A DNA stretch of 35,481 nt, taken from assembly GCA_025060015.1 (NCBI GenBank), contig JANXDB010000023.1:1-35481 (forward strand), in the 5' to 3' direction. Both the position numbers and the translations under genes were made by a program. The notes under the pieces were generated by a model. That model saw only the letters and a list, made by a program, of their open reading frames with translations, had not been told where the DNA came from and searched no databases. Position 1 is the first letter of the stretch; the number at the start of each line of letters is the position of its first letter. The DNA is from Caldimicrobium sp. Lineage in GTDB: Bacteria > Desulfobacterota > Thermodesulfobacteria > Thermodesulfobacteriales > Thermodesulfobacteriaceae. Of the stretch, positions 14,709 to 27,209 are shown in pieces.

Positions 14709-16595
14709 ATGAAATCCTTTCTCAAAAACATAACTCTCTCATCGAAGATTTTCATCCTGCTCCTGATGATTTTAACCCTCTTTTCCGGTTTAATCTCCCT
14801 TGCATTCTATTTTCACCTAAGAGATAAGGTCTTATCCAATTCCTATGAAAAGATGAATATTGTCTTTGCCAAAATGGATGCCTTAGGTAGATATGTGATG
14901 TACAACTTAAGACCAGCAATAATTGAGATCTTTGAGGAATTAGGACATCATGACCGCTTCATCAGGGAGGCCATGTCTACCACTCATGTCAGAAAGATAG
15001 TTATGGAATACTTTAAGGAGACCTTTCCTCAGGTAACCTATGAAAGGGTTTCTCCTTATCCCATTAATCCTGAGAATAAATTTCAAATCATTCACTATGA
15101 ACTTCTGGCGAAAATCATGGAAGAGGATCCCTCCTTTGCATGGAGAGGTCTGATAAAAATTGAAAACAGAGAGTATTTAGTTATCGCAAAACCCATATAC
15201 GCCCAAAAGAATTGTCTCACCTGTCATGGAAGCATTGAAAAAATTCCAAAGGCTCTCTTTAAATACTATCAATTTAAAGAGGATTTTCCGTGGATCGAAG
15301 GAAGCCTTATGGGAATAGAACTGGTAAAATATCCAGTAGAAGAGGCTTTAAGTGAAGTGAAGGCCTTAGTTGTGGGAATTTTCACTATTAGTATAATCTC
15401 AGCCCTTTTGCTTTTGTTCATCCTGGAAGGGCTTTTCTACAACATAATCATAAAACCTATAAAACAGCTGAATCATCATTTTAAAGCCCTTAGAGAGGGA
15501 AAGATATCTCTCAGAACACCTCTTCCGATAGTCTCTAAAGATGAGATAGGGGAATTATTGCAGTCCTTTAATAGTTTATCAAAGCATATTGACACAACTC
15601 AGAGGGCGATTTACGAAAACTTAAAAACCTTAGAGACAATCTTCGAAAGTATAACCCATCCCATTGCCCTTATCAACAGCTGTTGCGAAGCAGAGATTTC
15701 CAATCAAGCCTATAAAGAAAGTCCCTACAAAAAATGTCACCTAGAGTTAATTGAAAAGGTCTTTGCAGATAAGAAAAGCCTCAAAATGGAGATTGATGAG
15801 GGGGGTAAATTCTATCTTCTATCCTTTTACCCCGTGTTTAATGAAAAAGGTGAGGTTATAAAGGTTGTCCAGATCCTGGAGGATATAACAGAGAAAAAAC
15901 TAATGGAAGAGCGATTGATAATGACTGAAAAACTGGCTGCAGTGGGACAGGTATCTGCAGGTCTAGCCCATGAGATCAATAATCCTTTATCTGGTATCAT
16001 TCTTCTCCTAAACCAACTTAGAAAAAATCATCTTCCAGCTCAGGAAAAAGAAAATTACTTTGACCTCATCCATCAGGGACTCCTAAAAATACAAACTTTA
16101 ATTAAGGATCTGCTTAATTTCACCAGAAGTTCTGAGTTGAAACCACAAAGAGTTTCAGTAAATGAAATCATCATTGACCTGCTTAACCTAAGCAGCCATC
16201 TCTTGGAAAAAGAGAAAATCAGGGTTTCATTAGCCTTAGACCAATCTATGCCAAACATTTTGCTAGATAGAGAAAAGATGGAGCAAGTTTTTCTCAATTT
16301 GATTTTAAATGCAGTGCAGGCCATGGAAAACTCCACAGAAAAGCATCTAACAATTGAAACCTACCACAAAGCTGGAAAGGTCTATTTAACCTTTCAGGAC
16401 ACTGGTCCAGGTGTTCCTGAAAACATTGCCAACAGAATTTTCGACCCCTTCTTTACCACCAAACCTCCTGGCAAGGGAACAGGCCTTGGGCTCTCCGTTA
16501 GCTTAGCAATTGTTGAAAAACACGGTGGTAGACTTTACCTTGATAAATCACATAAGGGTGCTAAGTTTGTTATAGAATTACCCTCTGAGTTTTGA
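14709..16595 (+). CDS. Membrane histidine kinase with DUF3365 (heme-motif) sensor, HAMP and PAS-like domains
   Basis: 628 aa. TM1 is at about residues 12-34. The extracytoplasmic domain (about 40-215) is of DUF3365/Tll0287 type and holds CLTCH at about 169-173, a c-type heme motif. TM2 is at about 219-244, followed by HAMP (KPIKQLNHHF... SKDEIGEL) and a short PAS-like segment ending in VVQILEDITEKK. The NtrB-like DHp has phospho-acceptor His in GLAHEINNP (about 421), and the ATPase has N-box LILNAVQAM, DTGPGVP, FFTTKPPGKGTGLGL. It should phosphorylate the response regulator encoded 7 bases downstream, in response to a redox or small-molecule signal (inferred). No Shine-Dalgarno is visible. 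Confidence 0.9.
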   Translation: MKSFLKNITLSSKIFILLLMILTLFSGLISLAFYFHLRDKVLSNSYEKMNIVFAKMDALGRYVMYNLRPAIIEIFEELGHHDRFIREAMSTTHVRKIVMEYFKETFPQVTYERVSPYPINPENKFQIIHYELLAKIMEEDPSFAWRGLIKIENREYLVIAKPIYAQKNCLTCHGSIEKIPKALFKYYQFKEDFPWIEGSLMGIELVKYPVEEALSEVKALVVGIFTISIISALLLLFILEGLFYNIIIKPIKQLNHHFKALREGKISLRTPLPIVSKDEIGELLQSFNSLSKHIDTTQRAIYENLKTLETIFESITHPIALINSCCEAEISNQAYKESPYKKCHLELIEKVFADKKSLKMEIDEGGKFYLLSFYPVFNEKGEVIKVVQILEDITEKKLMEERLIMTEKLAAVGQVSAGLAHEINNPLSGIILLLNQLRKNHLPAQEKENYFDLIHQGLLKIQTLIKDLLNFTRSSELKPQRVSVNEIIIDLLNLSSHLLEKEKIRVSLALDQSMPNILLDREKMEQVFLNLILNAVQAMENSTEKHLTIETYHKAGKVYLTFQDTGPGVPENIANRIFDPFFTTKPPGKGTGLGLSVSLAIVEKHGGRLYLDKSHKGAKFVIELPSEF

Positions 16596-16602
16596 ATCTT
16601 CA

Positions 16603-17955
16603 ATGAAGAACGCCCGAATCCTCGTAGTAGACGATGAATTAATCCTTAGAACGGCACTGCAGGGAATACTCTCTTCTCAAGGATTTGAAGTAAAAACCTG
16701 TGAGTCTGGCAAAAAAGCTCTCTCCCTACTTCAACAAGAGGACTTTCACCTGGCCTTGGTTGATATGAGATTGCCAGATATCAATGGCTTGGATTTATTA
16801 CAGGAAATCAAGAAAATTTCGCCTGAAACCGGTGTTATAATCATAACTGCCTTTGCAGAGGTTAAATCTGCCGTAAAAGCCATCAAAGATGGTGCCTTTG
16901 ACTATCTATCTAAACCCTTTCAGGAGGAAGAACTGTTAATCACCATAGAGAGATTTTTTAAATACAGAGATCTTGAGAGAGAGTTGAAAACCCTGAAGGA
17001 AAGCCTTCCAAAGAGTTATCTTTCACAGGACTTAGTCGGCGAAAGCAAGGCAATCAGAGAGATCCTTCAAAAAATCGACCTAATTGCAGAAACCGATGTT
17101 CCTGTTCTGATATACGGAGAGTCTGGAACTGGAAAAGAGGTTATAGCTGATTTAATTTACAAGCTCTCTAAAAGGGTGGATCAACCCTACATAAAACTGA
17201 ACTGCACTGCTATACCAGAAACCCTCTTTGAAGCGGAGCTCTTTGGTTTTGAAAAGGGCTCCTTTACAGGAGCAGTGGAAGCGAAGAAGGGAAAGCTGGA
17301 ATTAGCACACGGAGGAACCTTACTTCTTGATGAAATTGGAGATCTTCCCTACAGCATCCAACCAAAACTACTGAGAGTCCTTGAGACAAATTCCTTTTTC
17401 CCCCTGGGGTCAAAAAAGGAAGTAAAAGTCGATGTAAGGTACATCTTTTCTACCAGTAAAGATCTAAAAAGGCTGGTAGATGAGGGCAAATTTAGAGATG
17501 ATCTCTACTACCGGATCAACGTCATTCCCATCAGAGTTCCACCCCTGAGGGAGCGCAAGGAGGATATACCCCATCTGATGAGGTTCTTTCTTCAAAACTT
17601 TGCTCAAAAATATAAAAAGAATATGCCAGAGATCAGTAAGGAAGCATACCTTGCCCTTTTGAATTATGATTACCCTGGCAATGTTCGCGAACTGAAGCAC
17701 ATCATGGAGAGAGCCATCTTACTATCAAGGGACAATCTGATAACTATTAAGGATTTACCTGAAGAGCTATGGATCAATAGCAATGTAAATGTTACGGAGA
17801 TGGACTATCATCAGTGCAAAGAGATGATTGAGAGAGAACTTATTTTTAAAACCCTAAAAGAATGTAAGGGCAAAAGATCTGAAGCTGCTAAAAAGTTAGG
17901 AATCTCAAGAAAAACCCTCTGGCAAAAAATCAAAAAATTTGACCTTCCAGCCTAA
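16603..17955 (+). CDS. Sigma-54-dependent response regulator (NtrC family)
   Basis: 450 aa. The receiver domain (1-120) has phospho-acceptor Asp about 54 in LVDMRLPDI, plus IITAFA and KPF. The AAA+ domain (about 145-375) has Walker A GESGTGKE (about 172-179), the sigma-54-contact loop as GSFTGA (instead of GAFTGA), Walker B GGTLLLDEIGDL and the R-finger region YYRINVIPIRVPPLRER. The C-terminal Fis-type helix-turn-helix reads RSEAAKKLGISRKTLWQKIKKF. It activates sigma-54 promoters when phosphorylated, presumably by the adjacent kinase. Its targets are unknown; see the paired dyads near 21.1 and 22.9 kb. It converges on the gene at 17970-18536 with a 14-base gap. Confidence 0.94.
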   Translation: MKNARILVVDDELILRTALQGILSSQGFEVKTCESGKKALSLLQQEDFHLALVDMRLPDINGLDLLQEIKKISPETGVIIITAFAEVKSAVKAIKDGAFDYLSKPFQEEELLITIERFFKYRDLERELKTLKESLPKSYLSQDLVGESKAIREILQKIDLIAETDVPVLIYGESGTGKEVIADLIYKLSKRVDQPYIKLNCTAIPETLFEAELFGFEKGSFTGAVEAKKGKLELAHGGTLLLDEIGDLPYSIQPKLLRVLETNSFFPLGSKKEVKVDVRYIFSTSKDLKRLVDEGKFRDDLYYRINVIPIRVPPLRERKEDIPHLMRFFLQNFAQKYKKNMPEISKEAYLALLNYDYPGNVRELKHIMERAILLSRDNLITIKDLPEELWINSNVNVTEMDYHQCKEMIERELIFKTLKECKGKRSEAAKKLGISRKTLWQKIKKFDLPA

Positions 17956-17969
17956 GTAAATACAGATTC

Positions 17970-18536
17970 CTATTTAAGATACAGGAAATAAATAACCAGG
18001 AGGATGAAAAAGAAAAGGGCAAAGATCTCTGATACTACCACCAAAAACACTACTCTTCTCCCGGTGGGACTTAACCTCAAGTAAAATCTGTCGAGCAAAA
18101 ACTTCCAGACCTTTGTCAGAGGGCTCTTGCTTTCAGTGATCATGGCATAGTTTATAATGCTCTTTATCCAAAGATTCAATTCCATTTGCTCCTCATGACT
18201 CAGACTCTCCTTTTTGACCACCATATCAAGCAGAGTCTTACCATTATCCTCTCTGATGGTAAAGCAGACCTGCTGCGGAAGTTCTCCATCAAAGGAGAGA
18301 TCAATCACCGTCGGATTCGACCTATACTCCACTTTAACCTTATAGAGAATGTCTTTCGACAATCCCTCGTGATGTAAGATACAGGTGTAAGTCCCGTTTG
18401 ATTGAATGGCCTTAGGAAAGTTATGCTCCTTTAGATGCCACTGGATGTTTAGCCTTAAGAGAAGTTCTAAGTTTGTTAAAACTTTCAACAAGGAATCAAG
18501 CCCTGCTGGACATGTGTAAGAGATTTTATTGTTCAT
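17970..18536 (-). CDS. SRPBCC-like domain protein with C-terminal membrane helix
   Basis: 188 aa, not firmly recognised. Residues 1-115 alternate strand-like segments (NIQWHLKEHNFPKAI, then GTYTCILHHEGL, then YKVKVEYRSNPTVIDLSFDG, then CFTIREDNGKTLLDMVV) in a pattern reminiscent of the START/SRPBCC ligand-binding fold. Residues 120-160 are helical, and the last ~28 (RRVVFLVVVSEIFALFFFILL...) form one transmembrane helix, suggesting a tail-anchored cytoplasmic domain. It overlaps the upstream UspA gene by 11 bases, so it is co-expressed with it. The function is unknown, perhaps lipid or small-molecule binding at the membrane in stress. The fold call is tentative. Confidence 0.5.
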   Translation of the reverse strand: MNNKISYTCPAGLDSLLKVLTNLELLLRLNIQWHLKEHNFPKAIQSNGTYTCILHHEGLSKDILYKVKVEYRSNPTVIDLSFDGELPQQVCFTIREDNGKTLLDMVVKKESLSHEEQMELNLWIKSIINYAMITESKSPLTKVWKFLLDRFYLRLSPTGRRVVFLVVVSEIFALFFFILLVIYFLYLK

Positions 18537-18999
18537 AAACTTCTGAGACTACAAAGAGCACAGGTATAGGAATATCATCCAAGACCTTTTGAGGCAGATT
18601 AAAGGAACGAACTCTGTCTAAATACCCTTTAAACTTCTTTTTGCCCATAACCAAGAGATCATATCCTTCCTCTCTCAGTTCCTTTAGGATCTCCTCTTTA
18701 GGGAGACCAAATCTCATCTTTATCTCATAGGGAATTTCCCTTTTTTCAGCTTCCAAACTGAATTCACTCAAAGCCCTCTGTCCAAGCTCTGCCAAGGTGT
18801 TATCTAAGTATTTTCTACACTCTTCACGATTAATAGCATAGATTTCATTGGTAAATCTCTTTGGATAGGCATCCACCACGTAAAGACAAACTACTTTAGC
18901 TTTAAACTTTTCTGCCAAATCAAGAGCAAATTCCTTGGCCTTTTCACTGTGAATCTCTCCATCGATGCAAAGAAGTATCTTTCTTAAACCTTTGACCAT
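18526..18999 (-). CDS. Universal stress protein, UspA family (atypical, ATP motif missing)
   Basis: 157 aa Usp fold: LRKILLCIDGEIHSEKAKEFALDLAEKFKA at the N-terminus (read in parts) and GYDLLVMGKK near residue 120. The usual G-x2-G-x9-G-(S/T) nucleotide motif is replaced by GKKKFKGYLDRVRSFNLPQKV, so ATP binding is doubtful; it may belong to the non-ATP-binding UspA class. It lies 45 bases after the YeiH exporter gene, with a perfect hairpin in between (19010-19033), and its 3' end overlaps the SRPBCC-like gene. The start has no clear Shine-Dalgarno sequence outside the hairpin. Confidence 0.82.
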   Translation of the reverse strand: MVKGLRKILLCIDGEIHSEKAKEFALDLAEKFKAKVVCLYVVDAYPKRFTNEIYAINREECRKYLDNTLAELGQRALSEFSLEAEKREIPYEIKMRFGLPKEEILKELREEGYDLLVMGKKKFKGYLDRVRSFNLPQKVLDDIPIPVLFVVSEVYEQ

Positions 19000-19044: not shown

Positions 19045-20364
19045 CTACTGTTTGATTGTAAATGGACCAGGACCGATGGCCATCACGAAGAGAAGTGCCA
19101 AGATGGCTTTAACGGTTGCTGCTATGAAACCGATTGCAAAGGCGGATCCACCGGCTTTCTTGAGATCGTCAAAGGCAATGTTTAATCCAACACCAGCAAA
19201 ACCTATGGCCATAAATATCTTTACAATATCTCTTCCGAGAAGATCTCTTACCTCAGGAGAGAAAAATTTCAACTCGTTAAGTGTTACCATGATAAAGAAA
19301 CCTAAGATAAAGATTGGGAATTTCTCCTTTATCACTTGCCAAGTATTCAGCCTCTGGGTGACATCACCGACCTGACGTGCAGGCCTTACCACATAGTAGT
19401 AAATACACCATAGAACTACAATTGGAATAAATCCGATACGAACGATATTGACCACATTAGCTGTAAGAAGAGCCTCGTGGCCATACCAGGTAGCTGCAGC
19501 CACCAACTGGGCTGTATTTAAGATGGCTGTTCCAACCCAAGCCCCGTATACTGCCTGATGAAGATTCAAGAGTTTCCCAATGTATGGAAAGGTAAAGAGG
19601 GCGATGGTTCCAAAGAGTAAGATAGTTCCTATGGCGTAGAAGAAGTCACGTGGCTTGGCATTGACAACCGGAGCTACAGCCACTGCTGCGGAAACTCCAC
19701 AGACTCCAACCCCTGCTCCCATAAGACCCATAAGTCCATCATCAGCCTTGGCTTTCTTGCCCCACAATGAGATAACAATTTGAGTACCCAACACAAAGAT
19801 AACTACTAAAACAAAACCTATTAAACCCACCTTTAGAACATCTGACCACATATAGTATGCACCAAGGATAATGATTCCTGGTTTAATGAAAGGACGGGCA
19901 GCCACAGTCCCTGGTTGAAGAACACTTGGCACACCTACGGTATTCCTAATAAGCATACCACCCAAGAGAAGAACTGCCACATAGGTTAACTGAAATTGAT
20001 TCATCCTCTCACCAAAGGTAAATTTACCTGGAATTGCCTTGTTCTGAAGAATAAACTCATAGTCTTCTTTCTTCAAAATAAAAGGCTTTGAGGGTTTCTT
20101 TTTTTCAAGACCAGCTTGATACTTCTCCATGGCTTTCTTATAGGACTCTTCCTTCTGTTTCTTATAATCTTCGTAAGGCAGAGGTTCTTTACCTTCTTTT
20201 ATGGGCTTAAGAACTTTTGAAGCCTCTCCATAGCCACGATGTAAATCACCTACCACATATTTATCATATTGAAGAACAAGCCAAGCTAACAACAGACATA
20301 CAATGAAGCCAGGCAACATCTTGGGCCACTGTCTAACATCAGTCAAATCAACTCCTACACCCAT
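19045..20364 (-). CDS. YeiH-family putative sulfate/sulfite exporter
   Basis: 439 aa polytopic membrane protein of the YeiH (Cons_hypoth698) family. Conserved regions include GVGVCGVSAAVAVAPVV, IGTILLFGTIALF, AVYGAWVGTAILNTAQLVAAA and NVVNIVRIGFIP. About ten transmembrane helices are seen. Between TM1 and TM2 there is an extra lysine/glutamate-rich segment (about residues 45-115) absent from shorter YeiH proteins. The family is annotated as a putative sulfate exporter; substrate evidence is limited. In a sulfur-metabolising anaerobe, export of sulfite, sulfate or a related anion is plausible. The ribosome-binding site is very strong (GGAGGAGGTGA). It sits downstream of a small membrane protein and a UspA. 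Confidence 0.85.
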   Translation of the reverse strand: MGVGVDLTDVRQWPKMLPGFIVCLLLAWLVLQYDKYVVGDLHRGYGEASKVLKPIKEGKEPLPYEDYKKQKEESYKKAMEKYQAGLEKKKPSKPFILKKEDYEFILQNKAIPGKFTFGERMNQFQLTYVAVLLLGGMLIRNTVGVPSVLQPGTVAARPFIKPGIIILGAYYMWSDVLKVGLIGFVLVVIFVLGTQIVISLWGKKAKADDGLMGLMGAGVGVCGVSAAVAVAPVVNAKPRDFFYAIGTILLFGTIALFTFPYIGKLLNLHQAVYGAWVGTAILNTAQLVAAATWYGHEALLTANVVNIVRIGFIPIVVLWCIYYYVVRPARQVGDVTQRLNTWQVIKEKFPIFILGFFIMVTLNELKFFSPEVRDLLGRDIVKIFMAIGFAGVGLNIAFDDLKKAGGSAFAIGFIAATVKAILALLFVMAIGPGPFTIKQ

Positions 20365-20381
20365 AGTTCACCTCCTCCTAA

Positions 20382-20555
20382 TTAATATTTAATCAAGTAA
20401 ATCGATGAGATGACCTTATTATCAATAACCCCCAGAAGAACCAGGATAACTACCAAAGCGGCAATCAGTAAGACAGCATAGTCCTCTCTTCTTTCCGCAG
20501 AGAAGGTCTTCTGAGCTTTGGCTTCAAGCTCTTTAGTTCTGGCTTCTTCTTGCAT
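20382..20555 (-). CDS. Small single-pass membrane protein (57 aa) linked to the YeiH exporter
   Basis: 57 codons on the minus strand. The first ~27 residues are charged and helical (MQEEARTKELEAKAQKT...), then one hydrophobic helix (YAVLLIAALVVILVLLGVI, about 26-44) and a short tail ending LIKY. The leader AAAGGAGGTGAGTT directly before the ATG is a full anti-rRNA match and is identical to that of the upstream UspA gene. Gaps are 17 bases both to the UspA stop and to the YeiH start, so it is one operon. By position it could be a regulatory or assembly subunit of the exporter. I know of no name for it. Confidence 0.8.
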   Translation of the reverse strand: MQEEARTKELEAKAQKTFSAERREDYAVLLIAALVVILVLLGVIDNKVISSIYLIKY

Positions 20556-20572
20556 AACTCACCTCCTTTCTA

Positions 20573-20992
20573 TTATTTTATTACCGTAACTGGACAGGTA
20601 GCATACTCAACTACTCTGGAAGATACACTTCCAAGGAGAACCTTCTTAGCTCCGTGTCTTCCATGGGAACCGATAAATATCTCATCCACACCCTCTTCTT
20701 TGGCAAATTCCACAATCACATCTGCAGGTCTTCCCTCTTTTATAACTCCCTTTCCTTCAACACCTAAAGACCTAACTTTCGCCAAGGCCTGATCAATAAT
20801 AACCTTTGCCTCTTTCATAAGAAGCTCTCTAACCATATCACAATCAATCTCCGTTAGACCTATAGGACAAAAGTCCTCAACGACGTATAAAACCACAAGC
20901 TCGCCACCCTCCTTTTTTACCCTCTCAACTGCCTGTGTTAAAACCCGATCTGAAATCTCAGATCCATCTATACAGGCCAAAACTTTACCCAT
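20573..20992 (-). CDS. Universal stress protein, UspA family (ATP-binding type)
   Basis: 139 aa, single Usp domain. The N-terminus KVLACIDGSEISDRV and the C-terminal GSHGRHGAKKVLLGSVSSRV match the G-x2-G-x9-G-S nucleotide motif, followed by CPVTVIK. The ATG is preceded by AAAGGAGGTGAGTT, a maximal Shine-Dalgarno. It is first in the UspA / small membrane protein / YeiH operon. Upstream lie an 18-bp palindrome (21015-21032) and two TGTTAC-N6-GTAACA-type dyads (21096-21147), so expression is probably tightly controlled. The stress protein may modulate the exporter, as Usp domains do for some transporters; that is inference from linkage. Confidence 0.92.
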   Translation of the reverse strand: MGKVLACIDGSEISDRVLTQAVERVKKEGGELVVLYVVEDFCPIGLTEIDCDMVRELLMKEAKVIIDQALAKVRSLGVEGKGVIKEGRPADVIVEFAKEEGVDEIFIGSHGRHGAKKVLLGSVSSRVVEYATCPVTVIK

Positions 20993-21032: not shown

Positions 21033-21095
21033 TATATGATCAAGAACTTAGAAACAAATTACATGCCTGATAATTTTGGACTGTTTGTATTGATT

Positions 21096-21147
21096 TTGTT
21101 ACCTTAAAGTAACAACTTTAGGGACTTGATGCGGCAAGAAGGTAACG
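21096..21147. promoter_or_regulatory. Paired dyads upstream of the UspA-YeiH operon
   Basis: Dyad A, TTGTTAC-cttaaa-GTAACAA (21096-21115), has perfect 7-bp arms. Dyad B, TGCGGC-aagaag-GTAACG (21130-21147), conserves mainly the right arm. The arms are 33 bp apart, three helical turns. A sigma-54-like AGGCAT-N5-TTTGTT (minus strand, plus 21054-21068) lies on the gene side, but its -12 GC is replaced by GT. The same pair spacing recurs at 22909-22959. Confidence 0.55.
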
Positions 21148-21158
21148 AGTTTAAATGA

Positions 21159-21190
21159 GAAGGGGGTTTAGTGAGAAATTGACCCCCTTC
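21159..21190 (-). terminator. Hairpin downstream of the cytochrome b gene
   Basis: GAAGGGGGT (21159-21167) and ACCCCCTTC (21182-21190) pair perfectly over 9 bp with a 14-base loop. It lies about 28 bases past the cytochrome b stop and upstream of the UspA operon control region. It likely ends the iron-sulfur/cytochrome b transcript, although no long U-run follows the stem. Confidence 0.5.
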
Positions 21191-21217
21191 GTGAAAAGTA
21201 GAGATAAAAAAGAGAAG

Positions 21218-21874
21218 CTATTGGTTTTTCTCCTTAATTCTTTCAAACCAAAGGGGATGACGTTCTCTCACATAATCCTCATCAACACTTCCGGTTAACA
21301 TGGCCTTTAAAAGGGGCCAATTGGCTTTAATTGCCAATACGAAGAAAAGATGAACAAAAAAAAGAAGGATGAAAAGCCCTCCGAAGATTGTGTGCAAAAG
21401 ATTTATAGTTGATTCTGTTTTTGGAGAGAGGATGATCCACTCCAAGTTCTTTAGAACTTTGATAATACCTGTGCCAACAACTACCGATGTAACTCCAGCA
21501 ATTCCAACATAGGCATATCTCTGTTCAGGAAGCCATTTATCAGCTGGAGGCTCTTTCATAAGTCCAAAGGAAGCAAGGATGGTTTTGAAAGACTTGATTA
21601 AATCCCCTTTCTTCGGTAGCAGGCCAAAATCTCTCCTCAGAAGGTGATATGTTACATGGAAGATGACCCCAAAGGTAAACAATATGGCAAAGATATAATG
21701 AAGTTTTGTTACTGTGTAGAAATCAGCAGTCCATTTAAAACCTGGCACCTCAGTAATATAGTACCTTTTGAAAAGGGGAAGGCACCCAAGTCCGGTAAAG
21801 ATTAACATTACGCCTGAGAGAGCAACAAGCCAGTGCTCGAACTGCACAATCCAGGAGTATCTCCTTATTTTCAT
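21218..21874 (-). CDS. Membrane cytochrome b, formate-dehydrogenase gamma-subunit-like
   Basis: 218 aa, four transmembrane helices. Heme-b ligand candidates are FEHWL near the N-terminus, LHYIFAI and FHVTYHLL in the middle, and LLHTIFGG / FFVHLFF near the C-terminus, as in FdnI/FdoI and related di-heme quinone-reactive subunits. The start ATG at 21874 follows GAGGAGGT by 7 bases; an adjacent GTG at 21877 has worse spacing. It is immediately downstream of the 4Fe-4S protein gene, with which it should form a membrane module passing electrons between the quinone pool and the iron-sulfur subunit. No catalytic molybdopterin subunit is adjacent. Confidence 0.85.
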   Translation of the reverse strand: MKIRRYSWIVQFEHWLVALSGVMLIFTGLGCLPLFKRYYITEVPGFKWTADFYTVTKLHYIFAILFTFGVIFHVTYHLLRRDFGLLPKKGDLIKSFKTILASFGLMKEPPADKWLPEQRYAYVGIAGVTSVVVGTGIIKVLKNLEWIILSPKTESTINLLHTIFGGLFILLFFVHLFFVLAIKANWPLLKAMLTGSVDEDYVRERHPLWFERIKEKNQ

Positions 21875-21877
21875 CAC

Positions 21878-22840
21878 TTAGACCTCCTCTTTATTTTTTT
21901 TGGAAAAGATAGCTCCGGCGATTCCTGCAGCTAATCCAAGGACCCCTGCACCAACAATAGCCTTACCCCAGGGGTTGATCTCCTCTGCATAGCGATTGGC
22001 AACCTTTACTGGCATAGAAAATCTTGCTTTCATCTCCCGAAGCTTGGCATCTATCTTTTCAAAGGAGACAGGAGAGAGATAGATGGTAGAGGTGCCCCCA
22101 TTTTGAACATCCCCATATATGAAGAGGCTTTCCTCAGCGGCCCGCTTTTTGGCAAGCTCGTAAATCTTTTCTCTATCCCCAAAGGTGTAGACGGCTCTAT
22201 CCTTTAACCTATCTCTACAGGCAACCACGCAGGCCGGCTCCTCCCCCCTTTTAATTCGCTCATCGCAGAGGTCACATTTGTACATGACTCCTCCGCCTGC
22301 CAATTTGGGCATAAGCTTAAGATATATACCTACCCCTGCCTGCCTTTGTGGAATCTGCCAGGGGCATACATCTCTACACTTGGCACCACCAAAACAGAGA
22401 TTATGATCTATAACAGTGTTTCCCTCAGGTTGTTGAGTGAGAGCTCCAAAGGGACAACCCTTAACACACGGTGGTGAGTCGCAGTGCATGCAACGCCTCG
22501 GGATGTAAAGGTTGTGACCATCAACCCCGACCTTCTGAATGAAAATCCAATTATAGGGAGTCAGAGTGTCAATTCTGTCTCTCTTATCTGACCAATCTTC
22601 ATAGGTCTTTCTTGGCCAGTAGGGTTGAATGGGTTTTTTCGGTTCCGGAAAACGATGTTTGTTTACCTCTCGGCAGGCCTTTACACAGAGAGGAAGAGGT
22701 TCATCCTTACAACCATCACACTTGGTAAGATCGATGAGAGTGGCAAACTTTCCAGGATAGGACCTTGCCTCCTTGGTAGTTAGTGCAAGGGCAGAAAGAC
22801 CTGCAACAACCTTAAAAAATTGCCTTCTATTAAGCTCCAT
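21878..22840 (-). CDS. Tat-exported 4Fe-4S electron-transfer protein, FdhB-like
   Basis: 320 aa. The N-terminus NRRQFFKVVAGLSALALT is a twin-arginine signal. Four cysteine clusters follow the FdnH/FdhB layout: CDGC...C...C (about 40-55), CMHCDSPPCVKGCP (about 117-130), CFGGAKCRDVCP (about 148-159) and CDLCDERIKRGEEPACVVAC (about 189-208), so up to four [4Fe-4S] clusters. A C-terminal membrane helix (AIVGAGVLGLAAGIAGAIF) mirrors the FdnH anchor. It should accept or donate electrons on the outer face of the membrane to the cytochrome b encoded next. A Tat signal on the beta subunit itself is notable, since in FdnGHI the alpha subunit carries it. Confidence 0.88.
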   Translation of the reverse strand: MELNRRQFFKVVAGLSALALTTKEARSYPGKFATLIDLTKCDGCKDEPLPLCVKACREVNKHRFPEPKKPIQPYWPRKTYEDWSDKRDRIDTLTPYNWIFIQKVGVDGHNLYIPRRCMHCDSPPCVKGCPFGALTQQPEGNTVIDHNLCFGGAKCRDVCPWQIPQRQAGVGIYLKLMPKLAGGGVMYKCDLCDERIKRGEEPACVVACRDRLKDRAVYTFGDREKIYELAKKRAAEESLFIYGDVQNGGTSTIYLSPVSFEKIDAKLREMKARFSMPVKVANRYAEEINPWGKAIVGAGVLGLAAGIAGAIFSKKNKEEV

Positions 22841-22908
22841 TGAGAACCCCCAGATATTTTTTATAATCTTAAATCATTTACCAAAAAATTCAAGATTATT
22901 ATGAATTC

Positions 22909-22959
22909 TGTTACCAGAGAGAAAAGGGAACATCAAAGGTCTGTTACATCAGAGCAACG
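22909..22959. promoter_or_regulatory. Paired TGTTAC dyads upstream of the iron-sulfur/cytochrome b operon
   Basis: Site 1 is TGTTAC-cagaga-GAAAAG (22909-22926) and site 2 is TGTTAC-atcaga-GCAACG (22942-22959). The TGTTAC arms are 33 bp apart, exactly as in the UspA-YeiH control region. A TTGAAT -35-like element lies on the gene side (plus 22888-22893). Confidence 0.5.
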
Positions 22960-23083
22960 TTTACCTCTTTGAAACCTGTTTTTTTAAGCAAATAAGGCTG
23001 GCATGTATCTTGATTATACAATAACATAAATATTAATTACTCCACTTCCTTAACAATCCCCCCTCCCTTTTACCTCCCCCTCT

Positions 23084-23120
23084 ACCCCTCCCCCTCCGGG
23101 TGAGGGGTCTTCTTGTTTTT
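23084..23120 (+). terminator. Hairpin with T-tract just upstream of dnaX
   Basis: CCCCTC (23091-23096) pairs with GAGGGG (23102-23107) around CGGGT; the arm at 23084-23090 (ACCCCTC) is an alternative partner for GAGGGGT. It follows a long C/T-only tract (from about 23057) and is followed by TCTTCTTGTTTTTT. It looks like an intrinsic terminator or attenuator, although no upstream plus-strand gene needs one. Confidence 0.4.
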
Positions 23121-25596: not shown

Positions 25597-26188
25597 GGAT
25601 CTCTGCCGAACCCTTGCTCTCGGATCTCTTATAAGAGGATATTTTCATAACCTTAAGGGAACCCTACAGTCACTCTCCCTTCAACTGCAAATTCTCTACA
25701 TGAAAAAGGATCAACTGGTTGATGCTAAGGGGCATACTTATCTTGAAAAGGCCCTGAGTTTTCTCCAAAAACTACAGACCCAGTTAGATGTGGCTTTAGA
25801 AGATGCTAATAATAACGCAACCGGTCCATGGGACTTAAGGGAGATTATGGAAAAGGAGTTAATCTTCTGGGAGGCCAACCTCTTCTTTAAGCATAAGACA
25901 TCTAAAGAAATACTGGAAAACAAAAAAGCTCAGGTTAATATTCCTATTTCGGAACTTAAGGGCTACCTCTGTTTGGTTGGAGAGATCCTCTATCCAAACA
26001 TTAAGGAAAACACAAACCTGAAGATAGTCATAGATGAATCTCCAAAACCAGTTATAGTTTTTCAGCTTGACCAGGACTTAGAAGATGAGATCTGTCAAAG
26101 ACTCAAAAATCTCTCACCTCTCCTTGAGCCCAAACTCCACCTAGAGATCGACCAAAGGAGACTTGCCATCTACTTCCATGTTCCATGA
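25589..26188 (+). CDS. Histidine-kinase-like protein with degenerate ATPase domain (recR-dprA linker gene)
   Basis: 199 aa, not matched to a named family. The N-terminal ~70 residues look like a dimerising two-helix DHp: LIRGYFHNLKGTLQSLSLQLQIL places His20-Asn21-x-Lys where kinases have the phospho-acceptor H-(E/N)-x-(R/K). The C-terminal ~110 residues alternate strands and helices (LKIVIDESPKPVIVFQLD, then LHLEIDQRRLAIYFHV) like a HATPase, but the N-box, DxGxG and GxGLG motifs are missing. It may be a phosphotransfer protein comparable in layout to ChpT, or a pseudokinase. It overlaps recR by 8 bases and dprA by 11, so expression is coupled to recombination genes. Confidence 0.55.
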   Translation: MDKDLCRTLALGSLIRGYFHNLKGTLQSLSLQLQILYMKKDQLVDAKGHTYLEKALSFLQKLQTQLDVALEDANNNATGPWDLREIMEKELIFWEANLFFKHKTSKEILENKKAQVNIPISELKGYLCLVGEILYPNIKENTNLKIVIDESPKPVIVFQLDQDLEDEICQRLKNLSPLLEPKLHLEIDQRRLAIYFHVP

Positions 26189-27209
26189 AGAAAAACTGCT
26201 TCTTTTGGGTCTTTATCTTGCCAAAAAGGGAGCCTTCCATTCAGCCAAATGGTTAGAGGACCTTTATCCCTTATCAGAGGTTAAAGAGAGGTATTCATCA
26301 AGCCTCTCCTCACTAATAGAGAGTGCCCAAAAAGAATTAGAAAGGGCTCAAAGAAAGGGAATTGAGATCCTCTTTTACAAGGATCCAAAATTTCCACATG
26401 AGTTAAAGCAGATCCCCTATCCTCCGCTTTTCATCTATATCAAGGGGGAAATCCCATCAAATCCCCGATTTGCCATAGTAGGTTCGAGGAAGCCAACTGC
26501 TTACGGTAAAGAGGTTGCATCACTTTTTACCAAAGAGTTATCAACCCATGGTTTTGCCATCATTTCAGGCTTAGCACGTGGTATTGATACAATAGCCCAC
26601 ATTACCGCCATCGAAGCAGGAGGAAAGACTGTAGCCATTTTAGGATCTGGATTAGACATAATCTATCCTGGAGAAAATCATAACCTTGCCAGTAAAATCG
26701 TAACCTCTGGTGGAGCCATTATTTCTGAGTTTCCCCTAGGCACCCAACCCAGAAGGGAGAATTTTCCAAGAAGGAATCGCCTCATAAGCGGACTTTCTCA
26801 AGGAGTTCTTGTAGTTGAGGCTGGTGAAAGAAGCGGAACACTTCTTACTGCCAAGTGGGCTCAAGAGCAAGGAAAGGACATCTTTGCCATTCCAGGAAAT
26901 ATCTTCTCCGATCAAAGCAAGGGAACACATCTCTTAATAAAAGAGGGAGCTATCCCCGTTACCAATCCAAGGGAGATTATAGAATTCTATGGATTTACCA
27001 AGGTTCACACACAGGGACACCAAAGTGAAAGGATTACAGATGAAATTACTCACTATTTATTGGAGATACTTTCATCCTATCCAATGCACCTTGAGGAGAT
27101 AATCATGAGGGTTGGCAAAAGTCCTGTGGAAGTGCTACGGGACTTAACACAGCTTGAGATTGAAGGAAGGGTTAAAGGCCTTCCAGGAAAGTTTTACATA
27201 AAAACTTAA
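26178..27209 (+). CDS. dprA: DNA-processing protein DprA
   Basis: 343 aa from ATG 26178; a TTG at 26163 would add five residues. The AAAGGAG at 26153-26159 is too close to the TTG and far from the ATG, so the start is uncertain. The Rossmann-like DprA core is clear: FAIVGSRKPTAYG, AIISGLARGIDTIAH, VAILGSGLDIIYP, GAIISEFPLG, FPRRNRLISGLS, VVEAGERSGTLLTA and IFAIPGN. The C-terminal ~60 residues form a winged-helix-like DML1 domain. In transformation DprA loads RecA on incoming single-stranded DNA. It is the last gene of the dnaX cluster and converges on the aldolase gene. Confidence 0.92.
   Translation: MFHEEKLLLLGLYLAKKGAFHSAKWLEDLYPLSEVKERYSSSLSSLIESAQKELERAQRKGIEILFYKDPKFPHELKQIPYPPLFIYIKGEIPSNPRFAIVGSRKPTAYGKEVASLFTKELSTHGFAIISGLARGIDTIAHITAIEAGGKTVAILGSGLDIIYPGENHNLASKIVTSGGAIISEFPLGTQPRRENFPRRNRLISGLSQGVLVVEAGERSGTLLTAKWAQEQGKDIFAIPGNIFSDQSKGTHLLIKEGAIPVTNPREIIEFYGFTKVHTQGHQSERITDEITHYLLEILSSYPMHLEEIIMRVGKSPVEVLRDLTQLEIEGRVKGLPGKFYIKT

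Follow-up and report, generated by a model that had tools for sequence, protein, structure and literature searches.

Two pairs of short inverted repeats in a 35,481-nucleotide stretch of Caldimicrobium DNA (the window; contig C55 of the 1.6-Mb genome G000) are very probably enhancer sites of the NtrC-type response regulator (RR) encoded at 16603-17955. Comparison with related genomes points to a usp-small-yeiH-usp operon as the live target, and the second pair would be an orphan, the relic of a lost long PF03601 gene. More generally, across sulfur bacteria of hot springs and Nitrospirota, this RR appears to have sulfite/sulfate-exporter-type genes as its conserved targets, those of PF03601 (YeiH-family) transporters together with Usp genes. 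The regulon is new, and its mechanism is of a known kind.

The original prediction had described dyads before two operons in the window, and their sequences, positions and 33-bp spacings were all confirmed. A perfect dyad, TGTTACCTTAAAGTAACA, lies at 21097-21114, and its GTAACA arm at 21109 is 33 bp from a GTAACG at 21142. TGTTAC occurs at 22909 and 22942, again 33 bp apart, with GCAACG after the second copy. The window thus contains two inverted-repeat pairs of identical spacing, starting at 21098/21131 and 22910/22943. The TGTTACCTTAAAGTAACA 18-mer occurs once in the whole genome. As a loose motif, the single dyad was unremarkable, with 9 matches in the window at 3 mismatches (9.4 in shuffled sequences) and 29 in the genome at 2 mismatches (46 for a reversed control). 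Genome scans for single dyads were uninformative, since loose matches were at or below the control level. One-mismatch matches on contigs C30, C31 and C64 were taken as chance, as were perfect dyads in two relatives (G001:944944 and one in G036), both within open reading frames. Comparison of relatives refined the palindrome to GTTnCC-N4-GGnAAC, and we defined a pair as two such 16-mers 30 to 33 bp apart with a combined score of at least 16/20. By this definition, the window holds 3 pairs compared with a shuffle mean of about 0.03, so that the pair is far from chance. The third pair-like match (26729-26777; 16/20) falls inside the open reading frame at 26163-27209 and was taken as chance.

Across relatives, a pair with 30- to 33-bp spacing was found at nearly every locus with an ortholog of the RR. 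In aligned upstream regions, GTTACC-N4-GGTAAC precedes usp-yeiH in G002 and in both copies of the operon in G006. The same sequence also aligns next to the iron-sulfur (FeS) gene (the FeS/long PF03601 region) in G001, G002 and G005. In G011 and G013, perfect dyads stand 86 to 97 bp after the RR ortholog, ahead of a gene for a 538-aa PF03601 protein. More distant orthologs (L067-L075; Nitrospirota and an uncultured bacterium) share 51 to 56% identity with the RR. There, the relaxed palindrome begins at most 40 bp from the RR stop codon and is always paired at 30 to 33 bp. The pair is followed by sigma-54 promoters of the TGGCAY-N5-TTGCA type and then by Usp, PF03601 or other genes. In two of the Nitrospirota genomes (L068:13579-13907 and L071:7737-8085), a long PF03601 gene exists separately from a usp-yeiH-like operon, and dyads with a consensus sigma-54 promoter precede each of the two.

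The pairs tracked the RR orthologs: 12 pairs scoring at least 16/20 were present in 160 kb of RR-ortholog loci, and none in the 1.007 Mb surrounding 68 regulators that are not orthologs. Orthologs found later, and not used to define the motif, likewise had a pair after the RR stop codon (G019, 19/20; G022, 19/20; G068, 16/20), and four paralogous RRs scored at most 12. In an RR tree, the dyad-bearing proteins form one clade (support 100/99). The pair is present in 20 of its 21 members, and the remaining locus is cut by a contig end. Pair spacing was 32.1 ± 0.8 bp. With up to 3 mismatches allowed, a genus-wide pair scan hit nothing but loci of the RR system (in G005, and in G006 the copy next to the RR); it misses the pairs of the window itself, which need 4 mismatches.

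The RR (16603-17955, plus strand) has receiver (PF00072), AAA+ (PF00158) and Fis-type HTH_8 (PF02954) domains, all over cut-off. Its loop reads GSFTGA at residue 219; orthologs mostly have GAFTGA, and the GSFTGA variant is listed as functional in a study of Desulfovibrio vulgaris (PMC4641369). A recognition helix of the form ISRKxLWxK is common to the clade. By its named relatives, the RR places the genome with Caldimicrobium/Thermodesulfobacteriaceae. The genome also encodes RpoN (PF04552, 3.7e-58, on contig C44). The domains, the GSFTGA loop, the RR-linked tandem inverted repeats upstream of -24/-12 elements and rpoN together place the RR in the NtrC family of enhancer-binding regulators. 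Matches to the AtoC, NtrC and ZraR equivalogs were below NCBIfam cut-offs (437 of 714, 427 of 559 and 372 of 760 bits, respectively). Comparative evidence strongly favors the RR as the predicted dyad-binding protein, as originally put forward. It also supports the proposal of a single regulator, whose paired dimers would occupy the same side of the DNA at a separation of about three turns.

Immediately upstream of the RR gene is that of a sensor histidine kinase (14709-16595, plus strand) with a periplasmic Tll0287/DUF3365 (c-haem Cache) domain followed by HAMP, PAS_4-like, HisKA and HATPase domains. The Tll0287 domain (PF11845, 1.6e-21) contains CLTCH at residue 169. A CxxCH-bearing Tll0287 domain fused to a kinase would make this protein an sCache_heme sensor kinase. 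The kinase orthologs at L067-L075, directly upstream of the RR orthologs, have CxxCH at residues 165 to 170, and the CxxCH-bearing domain was common to all kinase orthologs checked, in two phyla. In G006, a frameshift and a stop codon interrupt the RR (L215:4440-5684 and L066:8001-9337) shortly ahead of its DNA-binding HTH domain, yet the two usp-yeiH operons of that genome keep their dyads, which counts against the RR as their binder.

The predicted target operon is on the minus strand. Its first gene encodes a Usp (20573-20992; PF00582) and is followed by a stretch with a small gene (20364-20573; about 57 aa with one apparent membrane span in translation), the YeiH-family transporter gene (19045-20364; PF03601) and a second Usp gene (18526-18999; Pfam). 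The last gene (17970-18536), convergent with that of the RR, encodes a 188-aa protein with no Pfam match, and homologs occupy the same position in G002 and G006. The promoter-proximal dyad (21098-21113; GTTACCTTAAAGTAAC, 9/10), a candidate enhancer, has conserved counterparts in G002 and in the two copies of G006. The distal candidate (21131-21146), 33 bp away, is weak (7/10), which counts against the model. A sigma-54-like promoter, AGGCATGTAATTTGTT (21053-21068, minus strand), lies 29 bp from the proximal dyad, and the same spacing is found in G002. The original prediction of such an element before usp was correct, and its restriction to that operon was not, since the second pair has one as well (see below). 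A sigma-70 reading of the usp promoter (TTGAmw-N16-TAwwAT, with TATAAT-like boxes) was dropped; the conserved block there is GGCAT-N5-TTG.

In Caldimicrobium, the sigma-54 element takes the form GGCAT-N5-TTG[T/A], of which TGGCATAGTTCTTGAG is the example in G001. The -12 element (TTGT or TTGA) is without the usual C, a further point against the model; the promoter of the D. vulgaris lactate operon likewise has TTGT (PMC6456213). Measured from the second dyad, the -24 element is about 29, 40 to 41, 51 to 53, 61 to 65 or 79 to 83 bp away, with a period of about 11 bp (grouped P of 0.003, for promoters that are few and related). This phasing supports binding to the same face of the DNA. Also against the model, the element in G068 lies at a long distance (about 250 bp) from its pair.

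According to our model, the kinase would sense a periplasmic signal through its c-haem Cache domain and phosphorylate the RR. Two RR dimers bound to two dyads 32 to 33 bp, or three helical turns, apart would nucleate an AAA+ hexamer. At the promoter with the GGCAT-N5-TTG element, this hexamer would remodel the sigma-54 form of RNA polymerase. The products of the operon probably export a sulfur oxyanion, for example sulfite, or give resistance to it. The system would likely induce sulfur-oxyanion export and stress proteins upon a periplasmic haem signal.

Escherichia coli NtrC acts from paired enhancer sites upstream of a sigma-54 promoter. The arrangement described here is similar, with a response regulator of the AAA+ Fis-HTH type as activator and, ahead of a -24/-12 element, two dyads separated by about three turns. 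It differs from the NtrC/glnA type in its palindrome (GTTnCC-N4-GGnAAC instead of the NtrC sequence), in a candidate enhancer merely 29 to 83 bp from the promoter and in a local PF03601/Usp regulon instead of nitrogen genes. Nine of the sigma-54 operons in D. vulgaris carry genes for TSUP or putative sulfate export (PSE) transporters (PMC4641369, PMC3333781). That regulome, too, belongs to a sulfur-metabolising bacterium and has transporters of the sulfate-export type under sigma-54 RRs, in regulons that are mostly small and local; however, the sole Desulfovibrio match to our RR (L108, 40% identity) falls outside the RR clade. We found no description of the motif, the paired spacing or the link to a c-haem kinase in the D. 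vulgaris regulome papers (PMC4641369, PMC3333781), or of the motif or regulon in the limited set of literature searched. YeiH of Salmonella confers sulfite resistance, and its gene is also under a dedicated neighbouring regulator (PMC12880088). There, YeiE is a one-component LysR-type protein, whereas the system here would be two-component and sigma-54 dependent, with a YeiH substrate that we infer. Fused sCache_heme (DUF3365/Tll0287) domains were described in a preprint as c-haem Cache domains that bind NO and form no stable oxygen complex (PMC12889525). The kinase resembles them in the CxxCH of a periplasmic Tll0287 domain fused to HAMP/HisKA; NO binding was reported for a P. azotoformans protein (PMC12889525). 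The analysis assigns a predicted regulator, binding site and promoter class to the PF03601/YeiH family, transporters with a possible part in sulfur disproportionation and sulfate reduction. It ties this family to a recently described c-haem sensor domain, for which we did not find target genes described in such organisms, and the motif predicts targets in uncultured Nitrospirota.

The second pair consists of dyads at 22910-22925 (GTTACCAGAGAGAAAA, 8/10) and 22943-22958 (GTTACATCAGAGCAAC, 8/10), 33 bp apart. A sigma-54-like promoter, TGGCATGTATCTTGAT (22999-23014, plus strand), lies 40 bp from the second dyad and points away from the FeS gene; this element aligned in G000, G001, G002 and G005. 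The orthologous pair of G001 and G005 is flanked by the FeS gene and a divergent gene for a 582-aa PF03601 protein, with the sigma-54 element 40 to 41 bp away and aimed at the latter. This long PF03601 gene is intact in G001 and G005 and absent in G000 and G002, and no remnant of it was found beside the promoter in the window. In G006, it is a pseudogene elsewhere in the genome (L247) that keeps a 33-bp pair upstream. As the window and G002 have the pair and its element although the gene is absent there, and as the gene is broken in G006, we read 22910-23014 as an orphan control unit. It looks like a control unit that has outlived its gene, a case in which adjacency alone can mislead regulon calls.

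The original prediction had assigned this second pair to the FeS/cytochrome b operon on the minus strand, which encodes an HmcB/HybA-like 4Fe-4S protein (21878-22840; profile matches) and a cytochrome b561/formate dehydrogenase gamma-like subunit (21218-21877). This assignment was not supported, because the pair goes with the opposite-facing sigma-54 promoter and the FeS gene has a conserved sigma-70 promoter of its own (22866-22893, minus strand; TTGAAT-N16-TAAGAT, identified by eye and below the scan threshold). In alignments, that promoter (TTGAmw-N16-TAwwAT) is kept in relatives with and without dyads. The RR might still control FeS/cytochrome b from the second pair, for instance as an activator or repressor of the sigma-70 promoter, given that the dyad at 22910-22925 stands 16 bp upstream of the -35 hexamer, that the best dyad in G001 and G005 (10/10) directly adjoins this promoter at its -35, and that FeS/cytochrome b adjoins the RR in G000, G001, G002 and G005 (with a fragment in G007). 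We regard such control as possible but unlikely: besides the orientation of the sigma-54 element, FeS orthologs in G006, G011, G013, G019 and G022 have the promoter without a dyad and at a distance from the RR gene, and the RR is intact in the latter four. The 4Fe-4S gene is probably a neighbour and not a sigma-54 target. A functional role for the unit in the other direction, driving either the dnaX operon or an RNA of some 80 to 90 nt that ends at a hairpin (23091-23107), would fit the retention of pair and sigma-54 core in both G000 and G002 and the presence, about 75 to 95 bp beyond the element, of a terminator-like hairpin followed by a T-rich tail; noncoding RNAs are also among the targets of D. 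vulgaris enhancer-binding proteins (PMC4641369). We consider this quite improbable, as no Rfam match was found between 20900 and 23300, both dyads (8/10) are weaker than the best in G001 and G005, and the downstream intergenic stretch is poorly conserved.

Another regulator was also considered. If a CRP/FNR-family redox factor, the second candidate originally named, were the binder, the dyads would be its class I sites next to sigma-70 promoters, and it would co-regulate both operons. A 16-bp palindrome with an N4 center is of CRP/FNR-like size, the sigma-70-like FeS promoter has a dyad just upstream of its -35, and the genome encodes one CRP/FNR protein (L224). Operators of such a factor would be expected at sigma-70 promoters wherever the protein occurs, and this is not what we observed. 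CRP/FNR proteins are also encoded in G009, G010, G012 and others, where dyads are only scattered one-mismatch matches, whereas in two phyla the dyad is a neighbour of the RR gene, with sigma-54 elements after it. The dyads follow the RR clade and not the presence of CRP/FNR, and we regard this factor as a highly implausible binder.

With the RR as the preferred regulator, a broader and rather doubtful scenario is that the c-haem Cache kinase and the sigma-54 activator form a switch, responsive to NO or sulfur species, that controls the export of a toxic sulfur oxyanion (sulfite) via PF03601 transporters in Thermodesulfobacteriota and Nitrospirota. In this lineage, the enhancer and sigma-54 promoter of the lost transporter would have been kept for a new purpose, a short RNA or control of the divergent FeS/cytochrome b operon.

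Two further observations concern the surroundings of the second pair. Between the orphan promoter and dnaX, a G+C-rich inverted repeat with a T-rich tail spans 23084-23108 (plus strand), and a similar CCCCTC..GAGGGG occurs at the same place in G002. G007 has an FeS gene fragment between the RR and the long PF03601 gene (L217:2187-2504), which suggests that the FeS operon was once part of the RR/PF03601 neighbourhood in that genome.
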